A stretch of DNA of 48,582 nucleotides from an uncultured Bacillota bacterium (GTDB lineage Bacteria; Bacillota_I; Bacilli_A; RFN20; CAG-826), in contig CASEFL010000008.1 of the NCBI GenBank assembly GCA_949287245.1, forward strand, positions 1 to 48,582. Direction: 5' to 3'. The notes beneath the pieces are model-generated. The model did not search any database, was not told the origin of the DNA, and saw only the letters and a list, made by a program, of their open reading frames with translations. Shown here in pieces: positions 106 to 11,621 of this stretch; positions within the stretch are counted from its first letter, which is position 1, and every line of letters begins with the position of its first letter. The position numbers and the translations under genes were made by a program.

Positions 106-197
106 TGGCGGAGGCATCGAGATTCGAACTCGAGCACCGGTAAACCCGATCTAACAGTTTAGCAAACTGCCCCCTTCGGCCTCTTGGGTATGCCTCC
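106..197 (-). tRNA. tRNA-Ser(GCU)
   Basis: On the minus strand the acceptor GGAGGCA (197-191) pairs with TGCCTCC (116-110), followed by G and an encoded CCA (108-106). The anticodon loop is TTGCTAA with anticodon GCT. A long variable arm and a TTCGAAT T-loop are present, as expected for serine. It lies 45 bp downstream of jetC and may be read from that operon or from a weak promoter-like TTCCTC-17-TATTCT in between. Confidence 0.95.
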
Positions 198-242: not shown

Positions 243-3200
243 TTATTCGTTAACTTCGTCCGTATTTACAATTTCCTCTGTTTCAGGAGCCTTTTTTCCC
301 CCTTGATAACAAGTTAGATGCTCATTACGGCTGACAAGCACTAAGGTGCTATCAATGTGATCGGCTAAATATGAGAAACGTGAAGTAGGAACCGATACAA
401 GAAGTTGAATGTCTAAAGAACGATAGAATTCCATCATGTCTTCAATTCGGTCGCTATCCATATTGTTGAAAGCTTCATCCAACATAACGATTTCACAAGG
501 AGAGGAACCACTTCTCTTTTTCAGTTCAAAAGCGCTATCAAAGGAAGCAGCAATTAAAACATAGAATGGCGTTTGTGTTTCCCCTCCAGAACGCGCACGA
601 ACATTATCGCTATATCGCTTCTCTTGACCATCGGGAGTTGTTTCCACAATATCGTAACTTAAATAGTTTCGATAATCACAGAAACGCTCAATGGTTTCTG
701 CACTACTTTCAGCAGGATTTTCACTTGATAAAATGCGGAAAAGATAATCCATTGTCGAGCGATTTTCACCAGATAATAAGGAAGTAAATAGGTTACTTTG
801 ATAGTAATCTTCACTCGTATTTACGGCAATATCATATATCTTACGAAGTTCAGGGTCATTGGTAGGCTTAACAAGGAAGCGATAAATGGAATGTGCACTG
901 CCAAAAGGATGGCGCTTTAAGGTTTTGTTTAATTTTTGAATTTGTAAGTCAGCTTGTTCAATATTGCTTCGTAAACCAACTAAGAAACCACTTTTGAAGT
1001 TTTCAACCGCAACCATGGAGGCTTGTTCGGCCTTGCTTCTTGCCGAGACTAAGCTATCTTTTGTAATCTTATGATAACGTTCAATATAAAGAGGTAAATT
1101 CTCTAAAACAGGCTCCACATCATTTTGATTAAATTTATCGTTATAAGATGCCATGATGCGGGTAATCTTTCGCTCTGATTCCCCAAGGACCCGTTTGTTT
1201 TCTTCGTGTTCTTCACGAATCTTACTAGCGGCACCTTTTCCATAATTATGAAGTTTATGCTCCGCTAAATCTTGAATTAAAGGATCGCTATGATCAAGTA
1301 AGTAAAGATCATAAGAACGCTTTGAATTTTCTTTCGCGGCCATCGCTTGCTCTAAAGCAAGATTATAACGTCCGCGTTCTTCGGCAATCTCATCTCTTCT
1401 CTTGAATAAAGATTCTTGTTCTTCGTGTAAAGCTTTTTCTTTTGCATCAATGGCTTCTATAGCGGCACCAAACTTGGTTAAATCCTCTTCCGCCATGCTT
1501 TGTTCATAAGTACGAATCCGCTCAAGAGTTTCTTCTTTCTTTTTGCTAATTTCATCTTCTTCGTTCCATCTAGAAGGCAAGGAACGAAGAGGCATTGGGT
1601 CAAGACGCAAGGAAAGTTGTAGTTTTTCTTCAATAGGAGAAAGTTCGTTTTCCAGTTCACTAATCCGTGTCGAAAGATCCTGATAACGATCTTTCATGGC
1701 TTGAAGTTGACGCCCAATAGATTCTTGACCAATGCATAAAACAAAGTTTGGATCTTTGGCAATATAACGAATGGAAGTACCATCGTAATATAAGCCATCT
1801 CTTGTCATCCATTTATAATCTTCCCGTCCTAAGGGCTCATCTACAGCTTTGATATCCCCAAGTAAGAAGTCAACATAAGCCCGTACCAAAGGAAGTTCTT
1901 CTTCCCCAGATGCAGCAACCGCGCAATGGACTAAATCCGCTAAAGAATTATCCACTTTAAAAGGCACATCGCCTAAAGTTGAACTATCAATAACTCCAGG
2001 CGCGCCCTCTTCTTTTAACTCAGGATGACTGGAGACAACTTTTGCCGCCTCTTGATAAAATCTTTGAGGAACAAAAACGTCATAACGTCGATTCCCTAAT
2101 AAGCGTTCAATGGCTTCATCCCAAGACTCATCCTTCATCTCTAAACAGTCGCATAAAGGATTGCAGGCAAATTCATCTTCGAGTTGGAATCTTTCTTCTA
2201 ATAGGTGATAAAGATTTTTCGCCCCAACGGGGAAATCCCGTTCATGGCTTTCAAGCATTTGAATTTTGGGAGAAAGAAGACGTAATTCCTCTAATAAATT
2301 CTCTTTATTTTGACGAATTCGTTCTTTTTCACTTCGATATTGCTGACGAATTAAAGATAAAGAACTATCGTAACTTTCAAGAGCTTTTCTTAAACTAAGA
2401 CCATCTCGTTTCTTGGCAATATTCGATAAAGAGGATTTAAAACCTAAAGCAAGAGAAGACTCATCTAAGGTTTCTAACTGGCGGAGGAAAGAAACATCAT
2501 CCGCCGCTAAGGAGGCTAAACGAGAATCAAAAAGAGCAACATCACCTTTTAAACGGCTAATTTCGGTTCGTTCATCCCTATTTTCTAAAGCAGTCCGTTC
2601 TTGTCTTAAAGAGGCTAAAGCTTCATTAATTTCTAACCGACGGGCATCAAAAGCGCGTTCTTTTTCCCGTAAAGAGGCCAAATCTTCTTCGGCTTTTGTT
2701 CTTGCTTTTTCGGCCTCTTCTAAACTAATTTTCAAATCTAAAATTTCTAAAGCTTCTTCTTCTTTTAAAGCGTGATCTCTTTCCTCGGATAAAGAGAGAA
2801 GAGGAAGTAAGGCTTTGGCTTTTTCTTCTTCGTGATGAAGAAGAGTTGCAATATCTTGATACGCTTTTGCGGCCTCTTTTACCTCATCTAAGGAAACGTT
2901 TCGTTTTTGAAGTAAGAAATTGTTGGTAAATTCAAGTAAGTCAGCATTGGGATCAAATGCAATTGCGCTACTTAATAAAGTTTCGTATTCATCGGGTAAA
3001 TCAAGAGATTTTCGTACTTGAATGTAAGAAGAAGCAAGAGATTGGGCCTCTAAAGGAATAAAGGGAATCCCCTCACTTGTTGCAACCTTCTTTAATCCTT
3101 CAAAATTTAAAACTGATTTTGTTCCATCATCGCGATATTCAAAGAAAAGAGAATCATCAATTGGACCACGCAATTCATAAAATTTCGAAGGAAGAAGAAT

Positions 3201-3557
3201 TCCTCCAGTAATTTGTAAAACGCAGCCTAAAGTAACAAGAGATTCGCCATCTTCAAACTCTAAAGCAAGATGGGTAATAATATCGGATTCTGGACGTAAA
3301 AATTCTTTTCCTACAGCACCAATACGCGCACGCATATAGGTTTCCACCGTTCTTCTTGTTCCTGACATCCCATTTCTTGACGCCATATTAAATTTCTTTT
3401 GCGCTAAGCCGCCAGAAAGAACATAGTGAATCGCATCAACCAAAGTCGATTTTCCTGACCCGTTATCGCCAGAAATTAATAAATTCCCACGAATTTGGAT
3501 TGTTTGATTGGTAAATAAATGCCAATTAATTAGCTTCACTCTCGTTAGTTTCTTCAT
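243..3557 (-). CDS. jetC: JetC/MksB-like SMC ATPase of a Wadjet-type complex
   Basis: This is the 1104-residue motor subunit of an SMC-like complex related to MukB/MksB. Walker A (GDNGSGKST) is at residues 30-38. Long charged coiled coils run at about 230-350 and 620-850. The ABC signature RSGGETQ is near 988 and Walker B (VMLDEAFNNMD) near 1020. This is the usual order and size for JetC. The start follows GGAGG by 8 nt and overlaps the end of jetB by 32 nt, so translation is probably coupled. In known Wadjet systems JetABC extrudes DNA loops and JetD, a Toprim-type nuclease, cuts small circular DNA. Here no jetD follows: the next gene is a tRNA. The complex may therefore act as a condensin (MksBEF-like) or use a distant nuclease. 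Confidence 0.88.
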   Translation of the reverse strand: MKKLTRVKLINWHLFTNQTIQIRGNLLISGDNGSGKSTLVDAIHYVLSGGLAQKKFNMASRNGMSGTRRTVETYMRARIGAVGKEFLRPESDIITHLALEFEDGESLVTLGCVLQITGGILLPSKFYELRGPIDDSLFFEYRDDGTKSVLNFEGLKKVATSEGIPFIPLEAQSLASSYIQVRKSLDLPDEYETLLSSAIAFDPNADLLEFTNNFLLQKRNVSLDEVKEAAKAYQDIATLLHHEEEKAKALLPLLSLSEERDHALKEEEALEILDLKISLEEAEKARTKAEEDLASLREKERAFDARRLEINEALASLRQERTALENRDERTEISRLKGDVALFDSRLASLAADDVSFLRQLETLDESSLALGFKSSLSNIAKKRDGLSLRKALESYDSSLSLIRQQYRSEKERIRQNKENLLEELRLLSPKIQMLESHERDFPVGAKNLYHLLEERFQLEDEFACNPLCDCLEMKDESWDEAIERLLGNRRYDVFVPQRFYQEAAKVVSSHPELKEEGAPGVIDSSTLGDVPFKVDNSLADLVHCAVAASGEEELPLVRAYVDFLLGDIKAVDEPLGREDYKWMTRDGLYYDGTSIRYIAKDPNFVLCIGQESIGRQLQAMKDRYQDLSTRISELENELSPIEEKLQLSLRLDPMPLRSLPSRWNEEDEISKKKEETLERIRTYEQSMAEEDLTKFGAAIEAIDAKEKALHEEQESLFKRRDEIAEERGRYNLALEQAMAAKENSKRSYDLYLLDHSDPLIQDLAEHKLHNYGKGAASKIREEHEENKRVLGESERKITRIMASYNDKFNQNDVEPVLENLPLYIERYHKITKDSLVSARSKAEQASMVAVENFKSGFLVGLRSNIEQADLQIQKLNKTLKRHPFGSAHSIYRFLVKPTNDPELRKIYDIAVNTSEDYYQSNLFTSLLSGENRSTMDYLFRILSSENPAESSAETIERFCDYRNYLSYDIVETTPDGQEKRYSDNVRARSGGETQTPFYVLIAASFDSAFELKKRSGSSPCEIVMLDEAFNNMDSDRIEDMMEFYRSLDIQLLVSVPTSRFSYLADHIDSTLVLVSRNEHLTCYQGGKKAPETEEIVNTDEVNE

Positions 3558-4173
3558 CTTCGCTTCCTCCGATGTACTTGGATAACCGATCTTCTAACTC
3601 AGCCAAAGAAGAACTATCCACTAAAATTAATACACTGTTATAAATGACAATAGGGGTTTCTCCCTTACTAGGATCCTCTTGAAAATCAATAACTTTATAT
3701 CTTTTAAGGGTAGTAAGAGCGTTCTTAAAATCCGTCATCCCCACCCCATCAGGATAAATTTCTGTTTCGTTTAGTTTTTTTAAGATTTCTTCAACCGTAA
3801 CAATAACGCTGTTATAAGAAGCAATTTTTCTATCTCCTTTATAAGCAAGAGAACGAAGAATTAAAAGAACAACGGTTTCAAGTTTTTTAAGACGTAACCG
3901 GTTTCGTTCATTATCACCACGGATATAACAAAGTCTTTTTTCGCGATCAACAAGGAAAGAAATGTCTAAAAAGCGGAAAAAATCTTCTAATACAGCTTTA
4001 TAGCTTCCTGTTGCAACATAATAGTCGTCTTGATCTTGTCTTTTATCTTGGACTAAAAAAGTTTCGTTTAATAAACGCAACACAATTTTGGCAAAACGGT
4101 CGCATTTTGTTTCCGAAGAAGCAATAAGTCCATATTTTTCTTGGAAATCGGATAAGACATTAAGTTTTCCCAT
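3526..4173 (-). CDS. jetB: JetB/MksE-like subunit (DUF4194)
   Basis: The 215-residue product sits between the other two subunit genes, in the order jetA-jetB-jetC that is typical of Wadjet operons. Size and sequence style fit the DUF4194 family, winged-helix KITE-like proteins (MukE/MksE relatives) that bridge the kleisin and the SMC heads. The gene starts 2 nt after jetA ends, and its AAAGGAG ribosome site lies inside the jetA tail. The acidic C-terminal tail (SEDEETNES) is encoded where the frame overlaps jetC. Function is inferred from family and neighbours; no catalytic residues are expected. Confidence 0.82.
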   Translation of the reverse strand: MGKLNVLSDFQEKYGLIASSETKCDRFAKIVLRLLNETFLVQDKRQDQDDYYVATGSYKAVLEDFFRFLDISFLVDREKRLCYIRGDNERNRLRLKKLETVVLLILRSLAYKGDRKIASYNSVIVTVEEILKKLNETEIYPDGVGMTDFKNALTTLKRYKVIDFQEDPSKGETPIVIYNSVLILVDSSSLAELEDRLSKYIGGSEDEETNESEAN

Positions 4174-4175
4174 TT

Positions 4176-5549
4176 TTAGTCTCCTTTCTTTTCAATTAAA
4201 TAGTCATCTAGAAGATAGGCACCAAGTTCAAACTGTTCTCCTGTTGGTGCTCCAATTTCAAATCCTTCTGGCGCGTAGGCAGGGGCTAAAGAAAGTTTTA
4301 TGAAGCCATCTAACCCTTCTTGATTCAGTTCAGAAGCATATTCGGAATCGGAATTCATAACTTCTTTTAAGAAATCGACGATGGAATTTTTGCCATATCG
4401 TCTCTCTTCTTTTAAGAAACGTTCTGCGCGGGCAATAGCCTCTAAATCTTCTTCCCCTTCTTCAAAAGGTACTTCTCCTGGTGCTTTTCTTTGTAAATAT
4501 CGAGGTTTATAAATACTATCAGGAGCAATTGTCGCTAAATTATAAGGGGCAAAAGGTGTTTCAATTTCTTTCTCGTTAGGAATTTTCTTTAAAAGTTTCA
4601 AGGAACGATTTAAAGCTCCTTCAATATCGCGGAAATTATTTAAACGGAATTCAAGAATGGCACGTGTTGCTTGAACGTAAGAAGTATTTCGCATGGAAAT
4701 TTCTTTGATTTGATTCGGCATTGAATCGAAAAGATCAAGAACGGTGTCAAGCACTTCTGTTACAAAGTTCGTCGCTTCTTTCCGGTTTTCTTCACAATCA
4801 TCAAGATGTTTTGTTAGAAGGTAATCACCAACTAACCCTTCCATAACCGTTTCTTCTTTTAAATGCTCAATGGCTTTAATCACATCAACGTGACGAATCT
4901 CCGGATTATGAGGACCTTGTAAATTATTTAAAGCAAGTAGAGCAGGGTGTCTTTGGAATTCAATAAGTAAGGTATCTAAAATTTCTTTCTCTGTCTTTCC
5001 TTCTTCCTCTAACGCTTTTGCGGCAAAACGCTTAATTTGGCTATTAACAGAAAGAAGATGACGATATAACTGCGCACATTTATTGCTTAATTGTTCTAAA
5101 GCGGCTGTGCTTTTTCCATAATCAAAGGCTTTTAACGAACGGTAAATGTCCTCGGATAAACCAAAGTATTCGTTGCTTCTTTCCTCTTCTTCCGCAATTT
5201 CTAGAAGAACAGGAACAATTTTCATAAAGGCGTCACTTCGTGAGAGCCGTTCGGTAAAACCGTCGCCTTCTTCTTTATCTAACCAGCCATATTCCACAAG
5301 GCGTCTTAAAAAGGAACGTGCTTTCTCAAGAGGAGTCTTTGCCTCAATTTCAAAGTCATCAATGATGTCTTTTTGCATTTGTGAAGCAAGATAAGAGGCT
5401 AGTTCATCTTTATCTGCATCAAAACGCAAAGGCCCGTAATAATCGTCAATTAGGGCAATTAAGCGATAACTTTCTTCTACGTTACCTAGAGCAAGTACCC
5501 GGAAGAACTCTTTGGGTAAATTTCGATATAAAGGGGGAAATCTTTTCAT
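4176..5549 (-). CDS. jetA: JetA/MksF-like kleisin subunit (DUF3375)
   Basis: First gene of the jetABC operon, 457 residues from the ATG at 5549. The length, helical composition and place before the DUF4194 gene match DUF3375 (JetA), the MukF/MksF-like kleisin that links the SMC heads. A GTG three bases earlier (5552) is possible, but ATG is preferred. No ribosome site is visible. Instead an extended -10 (TGT-TATAAT, 5566-5558) ends 8 nt before the ATG, so the mRNA may be nearly leaderless. A strong terminator for the upstream helicase gene lies just before this promoter, so jetABC is its own transcription unit. Confidence 0.82.
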   Translation of the reverse strand: MKRFPPLYRNLPKEFFRVLALGNVEESYRLIALIDDYYGPLRFDADKDELASYLASQMQKDIIDDFEIEAKTPLEKARSFLRRLVEYGWLDKEEGDGFTERLSRSDAFMKIVPVLLEIAEEEERSNEYFGLSEDIYRSLKAFDYGKSTAALEQLSNKCAQLYRHLLSVNSQIKRFAAKALEEEGKTEKEILDTLLIEFQRHPALLALNNLQGPHNPEIRHVDVIKAIEHLKEETVMEGLVGDYLLTKHLDDCEENRKEATNFVTEVLDTVLDLFDSMPNQIKEISMRNTSYVQATRAILEFRLNNFRDIEGALNRSLKLLKKIPNEKEIETPFAPYNLATIAPDSIYKPRYLQRKAPGEVPFEEGEEDLEAIARAERFLKEERRYGKNSIVDFLKEVMNSDSEYASELNQEGLDGFIKLSLAPAYAPEGFEIGAPTGEQFELGAYLLDDYLIEKKGD

Positions 5550-5603: not shown

Positions 5604-8600
5604 TTATCGAAGTAGAGAAACGGTCATATCGGCATCTATTTTTATACCGAGCCTACCTCCTTGATTAGCCTTTAAGGCATTGCCTAAATAATTGGAGGCC
5701 TTCTTAATTAATTTTTCGTTTCCAAAAAGAAGTGATACTTGTTTATATAAGTCGGAAGCTAACATCTTCCCTTGATCGTGGAGAATATCACGCATCGCAT
5801 TACCAAGTTCAATGTAAGAAATATCACAAACATCGCGGGACTCACCTTTTGCTGGTAATCGATAGAACGAATAGGAATAACAAAGACCACTATCGGGCCA
5901 ATAGAAACGATAAGAACCACAAAATTCAATATAGACGTAAGGAAGGCAAGTTTGTAAAGCTTTCTGGAAGAAACCACGAATGTTCGCAGTCATGCGATCA
6001 ATTTGATAGCGAGCCTTAAATCTTTCTTTTAAAGTTTCTTCGGAAATAGGTGCTTCTTTGGCAATTACCTCACGTAAGAATAAAGAAAGGTTTTGTTTTT
6101 CTTTCTCGTTTTCAACAAAAGGACGCGGGGTAATTTCCGAAAAGACATAAGTAATGGCGTGACGGTTCCGTTCAACTTTCTTTGAAACTAAGTTGAGAGA
6201 AGTCTTATCCTCTTCCTCATTTTTGTCCTCTTCTTCACTTTGTGAATTAATGGCGTGATTAATCGCTTCGACAATTTGATTTAAACAAGAATCTGGGTGA
6301 TCAAAAAACTCCACTGACCACATCCGATAAATCTTCCAACCAAGATTTTTAAGAATTTCTGGTTGAACGATATTTCGATCTCGACAAGTTGGTGTATTTG
6401 TATAACTATCCCCATCAAGAATAATTCCTAAGATATAACGATCACCAAAACGTGGGTCATGAATAGCCACATCGATTTTAAAAGTCGAAGCTCCCACATT
6501 TGTATCCACACTAAAGCCTTTATTCCGCAATTCATCGGCCAAAAAATTAGCAATTGATGGCACTTCTGCACGGATTTTCCCTCTAGATAAGTACGGGAGA
6601 GCAGAAATTCCTCGTTGCGCAAAAGATAAAAACTCTTTTAGTCTTCTCGCCCCTTCATAAGTAGCCCGCTCGGCAGGAATTTCTTCTGCATAAACGGAAG
6701 AAAAGACAATCATTTCTTCCCTAGCGCGAGAAACAGCAACATTTAAACGTCGTGCTCCTTTTTCTTGTTGAGTTAAAGGCCCAAAGTTAATGGACATTTT
6801 TCCTGTTTTACGGTCAGGAGCATAGGTGATAGAAAAGAAAATACAATCGCGCTCATCCCCTTGTACATTTTCTAAATTTTTAACAAAAATGCTTTCTCCT
6901 CCAGGAAGAGCATTGGTCAAATTATTCGACGCTAAAAAACGTTCCAAATAGTCTTCAATTAAGTTTTGTTGAGGCTCGTTAAACGTCACAATACCAATAG
7001 AGTGCTTTGATAACTCTGGATCTTTTAAACGACGAATGACTTCTTTGACAATGGCTTTCGCTTCTTCTTGATTCCGATTATTGCTATAAGTGCCTTTTAC
7101 GTAACGGAAAGAAACGGCAGAACTTTCTTCTCCAGGAGAAGGGAAAGTTAAAAGAGTATTGCCATAGAAGCGACGATTGCTAAAAGCAATAAGCGATTCA
7201 TGACGACTTCGATAATGCCAATTTAAAGAACGTTTGGGAAAACCAAGAGCCTCCGCATCCTCTAAAAGTGATTCCAAATCACTTCCTAAAACAAAGGAAA
7301 CATCATCTCCATCCGTCGGTCCATTAATGGAAGTTTTAAAGAACATACTAGGAGGCATCTGATTTTTATCTCCTGCAATAATGCAAGATTTTCCACGAGA
7401 TATTGACCCAACCGCTTCTGCGGTAGGAATTTGCGATGCTTCATCAAAAATAACAACATCAAATTGGTGCTTTTCCGCGTTTAAATACTGAGCAACAGTA
7501 ACCGGTGACATTAAGAAACATGGGCAAAGTTTTAAAATAATGTCCGCGAAATCATCAAGAATTTTCCTTAAGGGGAAACCACGGAAAGAACCGGCACAAA
7601 TTTTCTTTAAATTGGCAAGTTTCGTTGATGGCGCCATTGGTGAAGACATATCGGGATAACAAGAAGTAATACGAGCAAAAGTTTCTTCAACGGTTAAACG
7701 CGCAAAATCACGAACATATTTTTTATATTGATTAATGTCACGCGTTGTATCGCTAGAATCCACTCTCCCTAAACTTCTATCGCCAATCTTTTTTTCATCA
7801 ACAGCAATAGTGGCAATCGTATTTCCTAAACTATGTTCAAAAATATCGACTAAATCTTCGGCGTCAAAAACTCCTTTTTCATAATCTTCTATAAGCTCGG
7901 AAGGCACAACCTTTTTTGCCTTGAGAACATCTCCTTGTAAATTGCACCAATACACTAAACGACCCTTATCACCACTAATCGTCCGTACACAAGATCTCGC
8001 ATATTGGAAGAAATTATAAGAAGGATCATCAAAATATCGTTCAAAATCAAAGTCATAGTCATCTTTAAGCATCTCACCATAATCCATCAGTTGCTCATAA
8101 GAATTGACCATACGCACAAAATCAGGATCAAAAATTTGTTGATCAGAACGGAAATAAGTGCTGAAGAAATTGGAAATTTCGGAAAAATCATGGCCTTTTG
8201 CAGGGTTTAATTGCTTAACAAGTTCACTAACAAGAAAGGTTTTCGAGAATTTTTTAATTAAAGCATCAAAATCAGCTGCCGTTCTTGGAGAATGAGCGGC
8301 AATGATTCTATCAGCCTGTCTTTCTTCAATGGTAGCAAAAGAAAGGGTAGAAGATGCGGAATGTAATTGTTTTAAATTCGAAGAAAGTTCAATTAAACCA
8401 TTATCTTTAAGGGCTGTTTTATTTTTTGCATAAGAACTATATTCCTTCCGGAGCTTACTCATCGCCCTATGTTTCTTAAAGAAAGATAACCCTTGGGCAT
8501 AAGAAATTTTGGCAGCAAACATGGCAGAATCTTTGGCCTTTTCACAAACTTCTAATTTCCAATCTTTTTCAATATTTTCGCGGAGGAGGTAATAGTTTTT

Positions 8601-11555
8601 TAGCCGTGTTAATTTATCTAAAATGTTCGCTTGAATCGCAAGAACATTTTTGTCTCCTAAATATTCAAAGAATAAATTGCTTTCTTTTTCAAATTCATGA
8701 AATATTTCCGTTAATAACTTTGCATTTTGAAGAGTCTCAGCAAACATTGGATGTTTAGAAGAAATTGTTGATATAGCAAGAGACATTGTTCCTAATAGTT
8801 CTTCTAATTTTGGTAGAACTTTTAAAAGATTATCCCTTTTTACAATCGAATAATCCCCGTTTAAATATGCGCGATAAGGAGAACGAGCATAACCACCAAC
8901 TTGACGGTCATGAACTTTAATTTGTTCCAATGCACTAACAGCTTCTTGATGACTTTCACGTGTTAAATTCCTAGCATACTCTTCCGATATATCAATCCGA
9001 TGACCATGAGCGCCATCTTTATGATATAAAGAAAGAAGAATGGCATCGTAAATCGAAATAAAGAAACCAGAATCGCCATGAATTGCTTTTAAAATTCCAT
9101 TTAGTTCATTTCGTTTTTCTAAAATTGCATCCGCGATTTGCGCGTATTTTTTTCCATCAGCCTCTTTTGGGCCAAGTTCCAAAAGTCTTCCCAGTTGCGA
9201 AAGAACAACCGATTTTGCTGTATTCATATTCGCAATTTGTAGGCAGAAATCACCCAGTCCTAAATCTTTTAAACGATTTTTAACAACATCAAGAGCAACC
9301 TCTTTTTCGGCAACAAACAAAACCTTCTTGCCGTGATATAAAAGGTCAACAATCATGTTAGCAATTGTCTGGCTTTTTCCTGTCCCAGGAGGGCCATCAA
9401 GAATAAAGCTCTCCCCCTGCTCTGCATCATAAATTGCTTTAATTTGGGAACTATCCGCTGGTAAAGGAATAGCCATCGAGGTAGGAGGAACAACATCGTC
9501 AAATTGTTCAATTTTAATTTCTTCGCCCTGCAAGGTAGAAATTCTTCCTCCTTCAATAAAAGAGCGTACAATCGGATGATTCTGTAAATCCTTTCTTCGA
9601 GTTTGAATATCGCTCCACATAACAAAATGAGCAAAAGAGAATAAACCAAGAACGCTTGGTGATTCCCGTACTTGCCAGTTTTTAAGTCCAGCAGCGGCAA
9701 TAATTCTTTTAATGGTATTAAAAGCCATCTGCACATTAATTCGTGTTTTTCCCTCTCCAAAATCCTCGGAAATACTCTCAATGGTCAAGCCATTGAAATT
9801 TAGATTAAATGCCTGCCGGAAATATTCAAATATGGTTGTATTTAATTGAATATCGTCAAAGGAATATTCAAATGTATATAAATTTCCCGTTTTTCTTCGT
9901 GGCATTTTTATCGGTAAAAGGAAAATTGGTGCATATAACGCCCCGGTTCCCACAGCGGCAGATTTCTCGTTCTCATACCAACAAATTAAACCAAGAGTTA
10001 AAAATAGAGGGTTACAACCAGTTTCTTCTAAAGAAGTGTTAGAACGTCTTGCTAAAGACTTTAGATAATCTTGTCCATCTTTCCCACTTCGATCAACATA
10101 ATATAAAGTGTTTCGACGATAACCATCTTCTACTAAAGAATGGGTTAGTCGTGGATCAAATTCTAAAATTCCTGATTTTTTATTTGAGGGAATAGCAATC
10201 TGAGGAGAAAAATCCAACTGCATTTTTTCTTTCCCTTGAAGAGCATCGATAAATTCTTGAGGTTCTGGAACAACCAGTTGAAGACCACTTTTCCCAAAAG
10301 GAAGATTAATTAGTCTATTTGACATATTTAAATCTAGAAGACAACGTTCCCAATGATCGATCCGATCTTCGGGTTTTTTACCTCCGATTTGAACAAAACG
10401 ATGGCGGCTTTCATCAATCTCGGGAAGTAAATAATCGGTCTCACCTGTTTCGATAACATCAAGTTTTACTTTTTTCGTTGCAATATCCGGAACGGGAATC
10501 GGTTGAATTCCTTCATTTCGGCAAGCATGAACATCCAAAGCCATGTTAAAAGAAACACAGTTTACTAAACGAGAATGACCAGCCTCTAAAGCATCCTTAA
10601 AAGTTAAAGTTTTAGCGTGTGTTAGTCCTACCACATCAATAACTGCAAGGTTTTCAAAACCTGAATCCGCTTGACTACGTAGCCAGGCCCCATTTTCATC
10701 ACATGGCGAGGTATGATGAGTGTCATCAAGCCAAACACCAACCATCGCATGATTTCCTTGCTTTTCTTTAACAAAAATTAAAACGGCATGTAAGCCAATC
10801 GCTTCACATAAGGAAGCAAAAAGAAAAGCAACATCAATGCAGCAAGCAAGTTTATGCTCCATGACCTCATATGGAGCACGAAGATACCAATAAGAATCGT
10901 TTGAATCTCCATTTACTACATACTTTAAATCAAGTTGCTGAGCAGAAAGATATAATGCGTCTAGTTCCTTTAAAACGTAGTTAGAATCTCTTGTTTGATA
11001 CCCACATAAATCCAAAGAGTCCCCATATTTGTCTTGGAATTTGGTTGTTGCCAGTGATACAAGATCAATAATTCTTGGATCACGAGGAGTAACATAACTA
11101 ACTAAAATTTCTTTTAAACGATTCGGATTGTATGATTTACGAATCGGTTGAATATCCAGTCGTTCAACGTGTTTTGTTAAAATTTCGCCAGAATCATTGC
11201 TTAAAGTTAAAACTAATTGAGCAGGTATCGCTTCATCTAACCAATATAGACCAGTAGCATCAATTACAATTGTAAAGTTATCAATTTGAAGAGAAGAACA
11301 CTTTGGAAGAACAGAGATAAGTTTATCGTCAATTTGTACTAATGGCTTATCCCCTAAACCTACACATTCAAAATGTAAGGTTAGGTTTTTAAATTCTTGA
11401 TCAAGAGGATTATGCAAGGTCACAGAATGTAAAAAACTAAAGCCATTTTGTTGTAAAGGCTGTGTTCTTTTTTGTAGACGTTCTGCTTGATAGTAAAGAT
11501 AACTTACTTCACCTGAACAATCCACTTCAAGAAAGACACCATTCTCTTTTTCCAT
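5604..11555 (-). CDS. giant DUF4011-type SF1 helicase with Vsr-like nuclease (HheA-like)
   Basis: A 1983-residue protein. Domains in order: N-terminal beta-rich part; transglutaminase-like segment around 235-280 (a Cys pair, then NHAMVGVWLDD); DUF4011 near 400 (WERCLLDLNMSNRL); Walker A GPPGTGKS near 720; coiled middle; Walker B FDEASQIPT near 1370; GDKNQMPPS; HYRSRHES near 1447; VSRAREE near 1606; a Vsr/MTES_1575-like PD-(D/E)XK nuclease at about 1680-1750 (KIDVAIHD, then GIILDGD and RDRN); and a DUF3320-like region near 1838. This plan matches the large single-gene helicases reported as anti-phage systems (Hhe type). Its target is unknown. The start is taken as ATG 11555, 8 nt after GGAGG; an earlier in-frame ATG at 11573 lies before that ribosome site. 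A perfect palindrome lies upstream. Confidence 0.85.
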   Translation of the reverse strand: MEKENGVFLEVDCSGEVSYLYYQAERLQKRTQPLQQNGFSFLHSVTLHNPLDQEFKNLTLHFECVGLGDKPLVQIDDKLISVLPKCSSLQIDNFTIVIDATGLYWLDEAIPAQLVLTLSNDSGEILTKHVERLDIQPIRKSYNPNRLKEILVSYVTPRDPRIIDLVSLATTKFQDKYGDSLDLCGYQTRDSNYVLKELDALYLSAQQLDLKYVVNGDSNDSYWYLRAPYEVMEHKLACCIDVAFLFASLCEAIGLHAVLIFVKEKQGNHAMVGVWLDDTHHTSPCDENGAWLRSQADSGFENLAVIDVVGLTHAKTLTFKDALEAGHSRLVNCVSFNMALDVHACRNEGIQPIPVPDIATKKVKLDVIETGETDYLLPEIDESRHRFVQIGGKKPEDRIDHWERCLLDLNMSNRLINLPFGKSGLQLVVPEPQEFIDALQGKEKMQLDFSPQIAIPSNKKSGILEFDPRLTHSLVEDGYRRNTLYYVDRSGKDGQDYLKSLARRSNTSLEETGCNPLFLTLGLICWYENEKSAAVGTGALYAPIFLLPIKMPRRKTGNLYTFEYSFDDIQLNTTIFEYFRQAFNLNFNGLTIESISEDFGEGKTRINVQMAFNTIKRIIAAAGLKNWQVRESPSVLGLFSFAHFVMWSDIQTRRKDLQNHPIVRSFIEGGRISTLQGEEIKIEQFDDVVPPTSMAIPLPADSSQIKAIYDAEQGESFILDGPPGTGKSQTIANMIVDLLYHGKKVLFVAEKEVALDVVKNRLKDLGLGDFCLQIANMNTAKSVVLSQLGRLLELGPKEADGKKYAQIADAILEKRNELNGILKAIHGDSGFFISIYDAILLSLYHKDGAHGHRIDISEEYARNLTRESHQEAVSALEQIKVHDRQVGGYARSPYRAYLNGDYSIVKRDNLLKVLPKLEELLGTMSLAISTISSKHPMFAETLQNAKLLTEIFHEFEKESNLFFEYLGDKNVLAIQANILDKLTRLKNYYLLRENIEKDWKLEVCEKAKDSAMFAAKISYAQGLSFFKKHRAMSKLRKEYSSYAKNKTALKDNGLIELSSNLKQLHSASSTLSFATIEERQADRIIAAHSPRTAADFDALIKKFSKTFLVSELVKQLNPAKGHDFSEISNFFSTYFRSDQQIFDPDFVRMVNSYEQLMDYGEMLKDDYDFDFERYFDDPSYNFFQYARSCVRTISGDKGRLVYWCNLQGDVLKAKKVVPSELIEDYEKGVFDAEDLVDIFEHSLGNTIATIAVDEKKIGDRSLGRVDSSDTTRDINQYKKYVRDFARLTVEETFARITSCYPDMSSPMAPSTKLANLKKICAGSFRGFPLRKILDDFADIILKLCPCFLMSPVTVAQYLNAEKHQFDVVIFDEASQIPTAEAVGSISRGKSCIIAGDKNQMPPSMFFKTSINGPTDGDDVSFVLGSDLESLLEDAEALGFPKRSLNWHYRSRHESLIAFSNRRFYGNTLLTFPSPGEESSAVSFRYVKGTYSNNRNQEEAKAIVKEVIRRLKDPELSKHSIGIVTFNEPQQNLIEDYLERFLASNNLTNALPGGESIFVKNLENVQGDERDCIFFSITYAPDRKTGKMSINFGPLTQQEKGARRLNVAVSRAREEMIVFSSVYAEEIPAERATYEGARRLKEFLSFAQRGISALPYLSRGKIRAEVPSIANFLADELRNKGFSVDTNVGASTFKIDVAIHDPRFGDRYILGIILDGDSYTNTPTCRDRNIVQPEILKNLGWKIYRMWSVEFFDHPDSCLNQIVEAINHAINSQSEEEDKNEEEDKTSLNLVSKKVERNRHAITYVFSEITPRPFVENEKEKQNLSLFLREVIAKEAPISEETLKERFKARYQIDRMTANIRGFFQKALQTCLPYVYIEFCGSYRFYWPDSGLCYSYSFYRLPAKGESRDVCDISYIELGNAMRDILHDQGKMLASDLYKQVSLLFGNEKLIKKASNYLGNALKANQGGRLGIKIDADMTVSLLR

Positions 11556-11621
11556 AGCAAAATCCTCCATCATTTATAAATTTTACGCGCATTAAGAAAA
11601 AACTCATCCAAAGAATAAAAA

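Follow-up and report, generated by a model that had tools for sequence, protein, structure and literature searches.

What the DNA-extruding subunits of a plasmid-destroying machine do when the subunit that cuts is not beside them is the question raised by this locus. Wadjet type I consists of JetABCD, called MksBEFG in Corynebacterium; its JetABC motor reels DNA into loops, and the nuclease JetD makes its cut when extrusion has gone right round a small circle. A nuclease-free complex, MksBEF, contributes to chromosome organisation in Pseudomonas. In the window (the whole stretch of 48,582 nucleotides analysed here) the original prediction had described an intact jetABC operon without jetD, and had left it to be an MksBEF-type condensin, a complex served by another nuclease such as the adjacent helicase-nuclease, or a Wadjet that may have lost jetD.

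The operon and the place of jetD

The three SMC-complex subunits are indeed intact, with full open reading frames, Pfam and PADLOC type I matches, and the JetA, JetB, JetC order of type I Wadjet. All are encoded on the reverse strand. jetA, for the kleisin subunit (4176..5549), is recognised by Pfam JetA PF18982 at 144.6 bits (cut-off 26.2) and by PADLOC JetA1 (E 8e-43), and starts at GTG 5552 or ATG 5549, so that JetA comprises 457-458 aa. jetB (3526..4173) encodes a KITE subunit of 215 aa with a DUF4194 domain (Pfam 73.2 bits, cut-off 32.7; PADLOC JetB1 E 3e-38), and jetC (243..3557) encodes an SMC ATPase of 1104 aa (PADLOC JetC1 623 bits, E 3e-187). With 2 bp between jetA and jetB and a 32 bp overlap between jetB and jetC, the genes form a single operon. 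The ATPase motifs of JetC are intact (Walker A GDNGSGKST, signature SGGETQ, Walker B LDEAF), and their residues do not vary across the 23 JetCs aligned. From end to end, the JetC family profile can be aligned to JetC chains of known structure (9qxt, 8as8 and 8dk2); the JetA alignment gave no match against the PDB.

The expected place of jetD is before tRNA-Ser(GCU) (106..197, reverse strand), which was found by ARAGORN in the window and five relatives and forms the conserved downstream border of the locus, 45 bp past the jetC stop. The left flank is unreadable in the window because the window opens at base 1 of its contig (C8). The five relatives (loci L040-L044) reach past the tRNA, where a gene of 290-360 aa and unrelated genes follow and no jetD occurs, and one of them, genome G104, is a single contig, 99% complete, with no jetD at the locus or elsewhere. 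In the window genome (97% complete, 13 contigs) no match was found to JetD_C (PF09983), nor to an in-family JetD profile made from six sequences, which seven JetDs of the family match with E values of 1e-57 or lower. The whole-genome search and the comparison of related neighbourhoods, both proposed with the original prediction, thus uphold it: the TOPRIM nuclease of type I Wadjet was found neither in the operon nor in the genome, and a jetD just left of the window, which would have told against the claim, was looked for and not found.

A jetD that is present but missed, through an assembly gap or strong divergence, would be in keeping with a window that ends where its contig does and a genome 97% complete. 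It is scarcely credible given relatives that have no jetD there or elsewhere, the single-contig genome among them, and an in-family profile that scores all known JetDs strongly; a hidden or diverged jetD was rejected when neither profile found a match. Orphan jetDs serving JetD-less operons were likewise set aside: genome G178 actually carries full jetABCD, and the one real orphan, in G146, is outside the window genus. This orphan (L139:6091-7731) is 546 aa long, the usual length being 370-420 aa, and has no adjoining jetABC; the same genome also has a JetD-less jetABC elsewhere. IFDR is a JetD-binding motif reported for JetB, and in the aligned JetB N-termini it is unrecognisable, even in jetD-bearing operons of this set.

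The adjacent helicase-nuclease

Upstream of jetA and in the same direction lies a gene (5604..11573, reverse strand) for a ProA/PDC-S37-type SF1 helicase of 1989 aa with an MTES_1575 nuclease domain. It scores 962 bits with PADLOC PDC-S37 and 1398 bits with NCBIfam ProA, below the 1500-bit cut-off for that family, which related full-length proteins of the genus pass at 1509. Pfam recognises MTES_1575 and DUF4011 in it, and its layout runs from a transglutaminase-like stretch through DUF4011, two helicase halves and the MTES_1575 nuclease to DUF3320. No paper on what ProA was tested for was found in the open-access literature.

It might be supposed, as the original prediction had suggested, that this protein stands in for JetD, with jetA, jetB, jetC and the helicase gene working as one defence system of four genes and the MTES_1575 nuclease doing the cutting. 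The genes share a strand with gaps of ~50 bp, five genomes whose JetCs are as little as 53% identical keep their order, and the helicase, which has a nuclease domain, is a member of a known or candidate defence family. However, the helicase is present in 16 of 16 sampled genomes of the window genus, six of which are missing jetA, and its relatives elsewhere in the order are mostly on contigs other than that of jetA. In G068 and G083 the tRNA-Ser(CGA)-EAL-proS-helicase-...-tRNA-Ser(GCU) locus has other genes where jetABC would sit, in G024 a glycoside hydrolase gene occupies that place, and in G173 jetABC and the helicase are on separate contigs. The helicase also diverges much faster: between the window and L044 identity is 64% for the helicase, compared with 85% for JetA, 89% for JetB, 82% for JetC and 80% for proS.

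Since the locus is found without jetABC, or the pair apart, the helicase-jetABC pairing is local. The helicase as replacement nuclease was dropped as the main reading on these empty-site and conservation comparisons, and the four-gene system is an unlikely explanation of the locus; the helicase is probably an independent defence gene, judging from its sequence and distribution, while some functional tie remains conceivable, as five genomes conserve the adjacency. As a separate observation, the slot between the helicase and tRNA-Ser(GCU) varies in the genus (L097, L098, L109 and the window), holding jetABC in some genomes and a glycoside hydrolase 31 gene or different small genes in others.

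Settings, descent and maintenance of jetABC

Within the family, 36 of 116 genomes have JetA and seven have a JetD_C match above the cut-off; in the order sample of 156 genomes the counts are 100 and 12, and JetA occurs in 53 of the 55 genomes from seven other families of the order. Gene order sorts jetABC into three settings. In setting (a) jetABCD has no constant location, and some copies adjoin an Eco57I-type restriction gene or a Schlafen-type helicase. Setting (b) is a JetD-less jetABC at a fixed site among conserved housekeeping genes in ~22 family genomes, in the order rlmN, PP2C phosphatase, Ser/Thr kinase, rsgA, rpe ... jetABC, glgC, glgD, glgA, leuS, these neighbours being named from their sequences and profile-tested for some of them only; glgC/glgD/glgA or leuS adjoin setting (b) jetABC in other families also. 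Setting (c) is that of the window. Genomes G005, G036 and G106 each hold settings (a) and (b), which are therefore distinct systems in one cell.

Two further loci may be mentioned here. On an Agathobacter rectalis secondary replicon (L137, NZ_CP143948.1) jetABC is followed by a carbonic-anhydrase gene in place of jetD, so the JetD-less pattern is wider than this order. Genome G026 (L076, G026:C32) holds a decaying Wadjet in which JetA is in two pieces and JetD is shortened, and the stretch between these was found to hold neither JetB nor JetC.

In the JetC tree, setting (b) sequences from all families form one clade (99) with the family clades inside it, as expected under vertical descent, and by this tree setting (b) is apparently an older, vertically inherited JetD-less lineage running through the order. 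The window clade sits instead among jetD-bearing operons, its sister being the jetD-bearing pair G103/G038 (100/99 support), and this nesting bears out the earlier suggestion that jetD may have been lost. JetD-less Wadjet-derived operons need four separate changes in every bootstrap tree, and constraining them to one clade costs 236 log units and is rejected (p-AU 3.5e-5). JetD thus appears to have been lost about four separate times among nuclease-bearing Wadjets; three of the four losses fall in the window genus. Of the 11 genomes where a Wadjet derivative without JetD occurs, the window genome included, not one holds the older setting (b) copy, which is found in 9 of the 12 with full jetABCD (Fisher p 0.001, calculated before G178 joined the jetABCD group, ignoring relatedness and resting on few independent lineages). 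The pattern is consistent with loss of the ancestral copy followed by domestication of a defence Wadjet, with few independent events behind it.

The operon might instead be a decaying Wadjet that has lost jetD and whose other genes are on their way out, given that jetA is absent from six of the 16 genus genomes, that the genomes are small, and that decaying Wadjets occur nearby (G026, with its split JetA). The frames, however, are full-length in seven genomes, codon use in the window genome is like that of the neighbouring genes, and the ATPase motifs are preserved. The dN/dS of jetABC is ~0.05-0.08 between the window and L044, where dS is near saturation, and 0.04-0.09 among the closer relatives L040-L042. 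By these ratios jetABC is evidently under purifying selection, and by protein identity it is about as conserved as proS; the operon is therefore maintained rather than decaying, and decay is very improbable.

Composition shows a feature of its own. In JetD-less jetABC (L040, L041, L105, L106, L069, L107) third-position GC is higher than in most neighbours (0.53 vs 0.36 in L105), which is not shared by jetD-bearing operons and could be read as codon selection or foreign origin. Within the one genus GC ranges from ~37% (window) to 62% (the L040 locus).

A chromosomal role and the known SMC systems

There is a second absence in these genomes. ScpA was found over cut-off in none of 116 family genomes and none of 156 order genomes, the same search being positive in nine of 14 control genomes, including B. 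subtilis and Lactococcus, and SMC_prok_B was over cut-off in none of the 116 family genomes. The SMC hinge profile has matches in 14 of 156 order genomes, of which 12 are on JetA's contig at the distance of jetC and a 13th (G187) is inside a JetC whose JetA is cut off from it by the end of a contig. By these three profiles the order appears to be without ScpA and without a recognisable Smc, and it may have a divergent condensin from some family other than those searched. About 70% of the sampled family genomes have neither jetABC nor ScpA; a chromosomal SMC complex is therefore dispensable in these, and JetABC is not essential.

For an intact, conserved operon that descends from jetD-bearing ones, in a genome and an order with no Smc-ScpAB, the reading favoured here, with moderate confidence, is a type I Wadjet that lost jetD in the ancestor of part of the genus and kept its motor as an extruder of loops in host DNA, in the manner of MksBEF. 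JetC, JetA and JetB would still assemble into an ATP-driven loop extruder. In the absence of a JetD that cuts once extrusion is complete, this motor would act on host DNA, aiding chromosome folding or segregation as MksBEF does in Pseudomonas. Since the order is without the usual chromosome-folding motor and the cutting subunit has been lost, the remaining motor probably now has the host chromosome as its substrate. Loop extrusion, action on the chromosome and the filling of the gap left by Smc-ScpAB are all ascribed to the window JetABC by analogy.

A motor without a nuclease may instead act on plasmid or phage DNA without cutting of its own, by compaction, silencing or mis-segregation, or with the help of an unlinked host nuclease. 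The ancestry of the operon in anti-plasmid systems is in keeping with this, as is extrusion being the sensing step of Wadjet (PMC10586767), and repeated losses of JetD would fit a JetABC activity that stays useful. Suppression of transformation in B. subtilis assays, however, required all four subunits (PMC10586767), and in its conservation jetABC resembles proS and not the defence gene next to it. The JetD-less operons whose neighbours were searched against protein families (L105, L068, L069, L103) adjoin ordinary genes, with a Fic gene beside one of these operons, whereas three jetD-bearing operons adjoin restriction or Schlafen-helicase genes. Defence without cutting is accordingly rather unlikely, and a host-DNA extruder remains the preferred reading.

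A wider proposal can be put forward more tentatively, at somewhat less than an even chance: that Smc-ScpAB was lost from this whole order of gut-type Bacilli with small genomes, in which a nuclease-free JetABC derived from Wadjet serves as the chromosomal SMC complex, and that the window genus lost the ancestral copy and then domesticated defence Wadjets several times through loss of JetD. In this JetABC would resemble MukBEF, which replaced Smc-ScpAB across a whole clade, and MksBEF and MukBEF have been proposed to derive from Wadjet-like defence systems (PMC10586767). JetD-less Muk/Wadjet-like complexes are already known, as MksBEF; no paper was found in the open-access literature on a type I JetABC without JetD that takes over from Smc-ScpAB across a clade, or on several recent losses of JetD. 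The transition from Wadjet-like systems to MksBEF and MukBEF is ancient and hard to see, whereas here, in an order that lacks Smc-ScpAB, one family holds jetD-bearing and jetD-less operons, jetD having been lost several times independently. With both kinds of operon side by side, the change of a machine that destroys plasmids into a motor for the chromosome becomes directly testable. PADLOC-style defence calls on JetABC can, moreover, be wrong.

Among known systems, the window operon is closest to Wadjet type I in its JetA, JetB and JetC families, gene order, overlaps, ATPase motifs and a JetC nested among jetD-bearing operons, and differs from it in having no plasmid-cutting JetD and in occupying a conserved locus rather than a defence neighbourhood. 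Like MksBEF of Pseudomonas aeruginosa, it is a Muk/Wadjet-like SMC-kleisin-KITE operon without a nuclease, for which the same evolutionary route is proposed, but P. aeruginosa retains Smc (PMC7485682), which is not recognisable in this order. The window subunits, moreover, match type I models better than MksB, MksE or MksF (Pfam MksE scores 13 bits on JetA, cut-off 27), so that the suggested MksBEF-type condensin holds as a way of working and fails as a family membership, the sequence being that of a type I JetABC. The JetC profile matches the head of MukB, but JetC has ~1100 aa against 1482 in MukB, and MukBEF has another kleisin family. With Smc-ScpAB the operon would share a proposed role in chromosome folding, while differing in that ScpA was over cut-off in none of the genomes of the order, and in a JetC that falls outside the Smc equivalog (51 bits vs 567).
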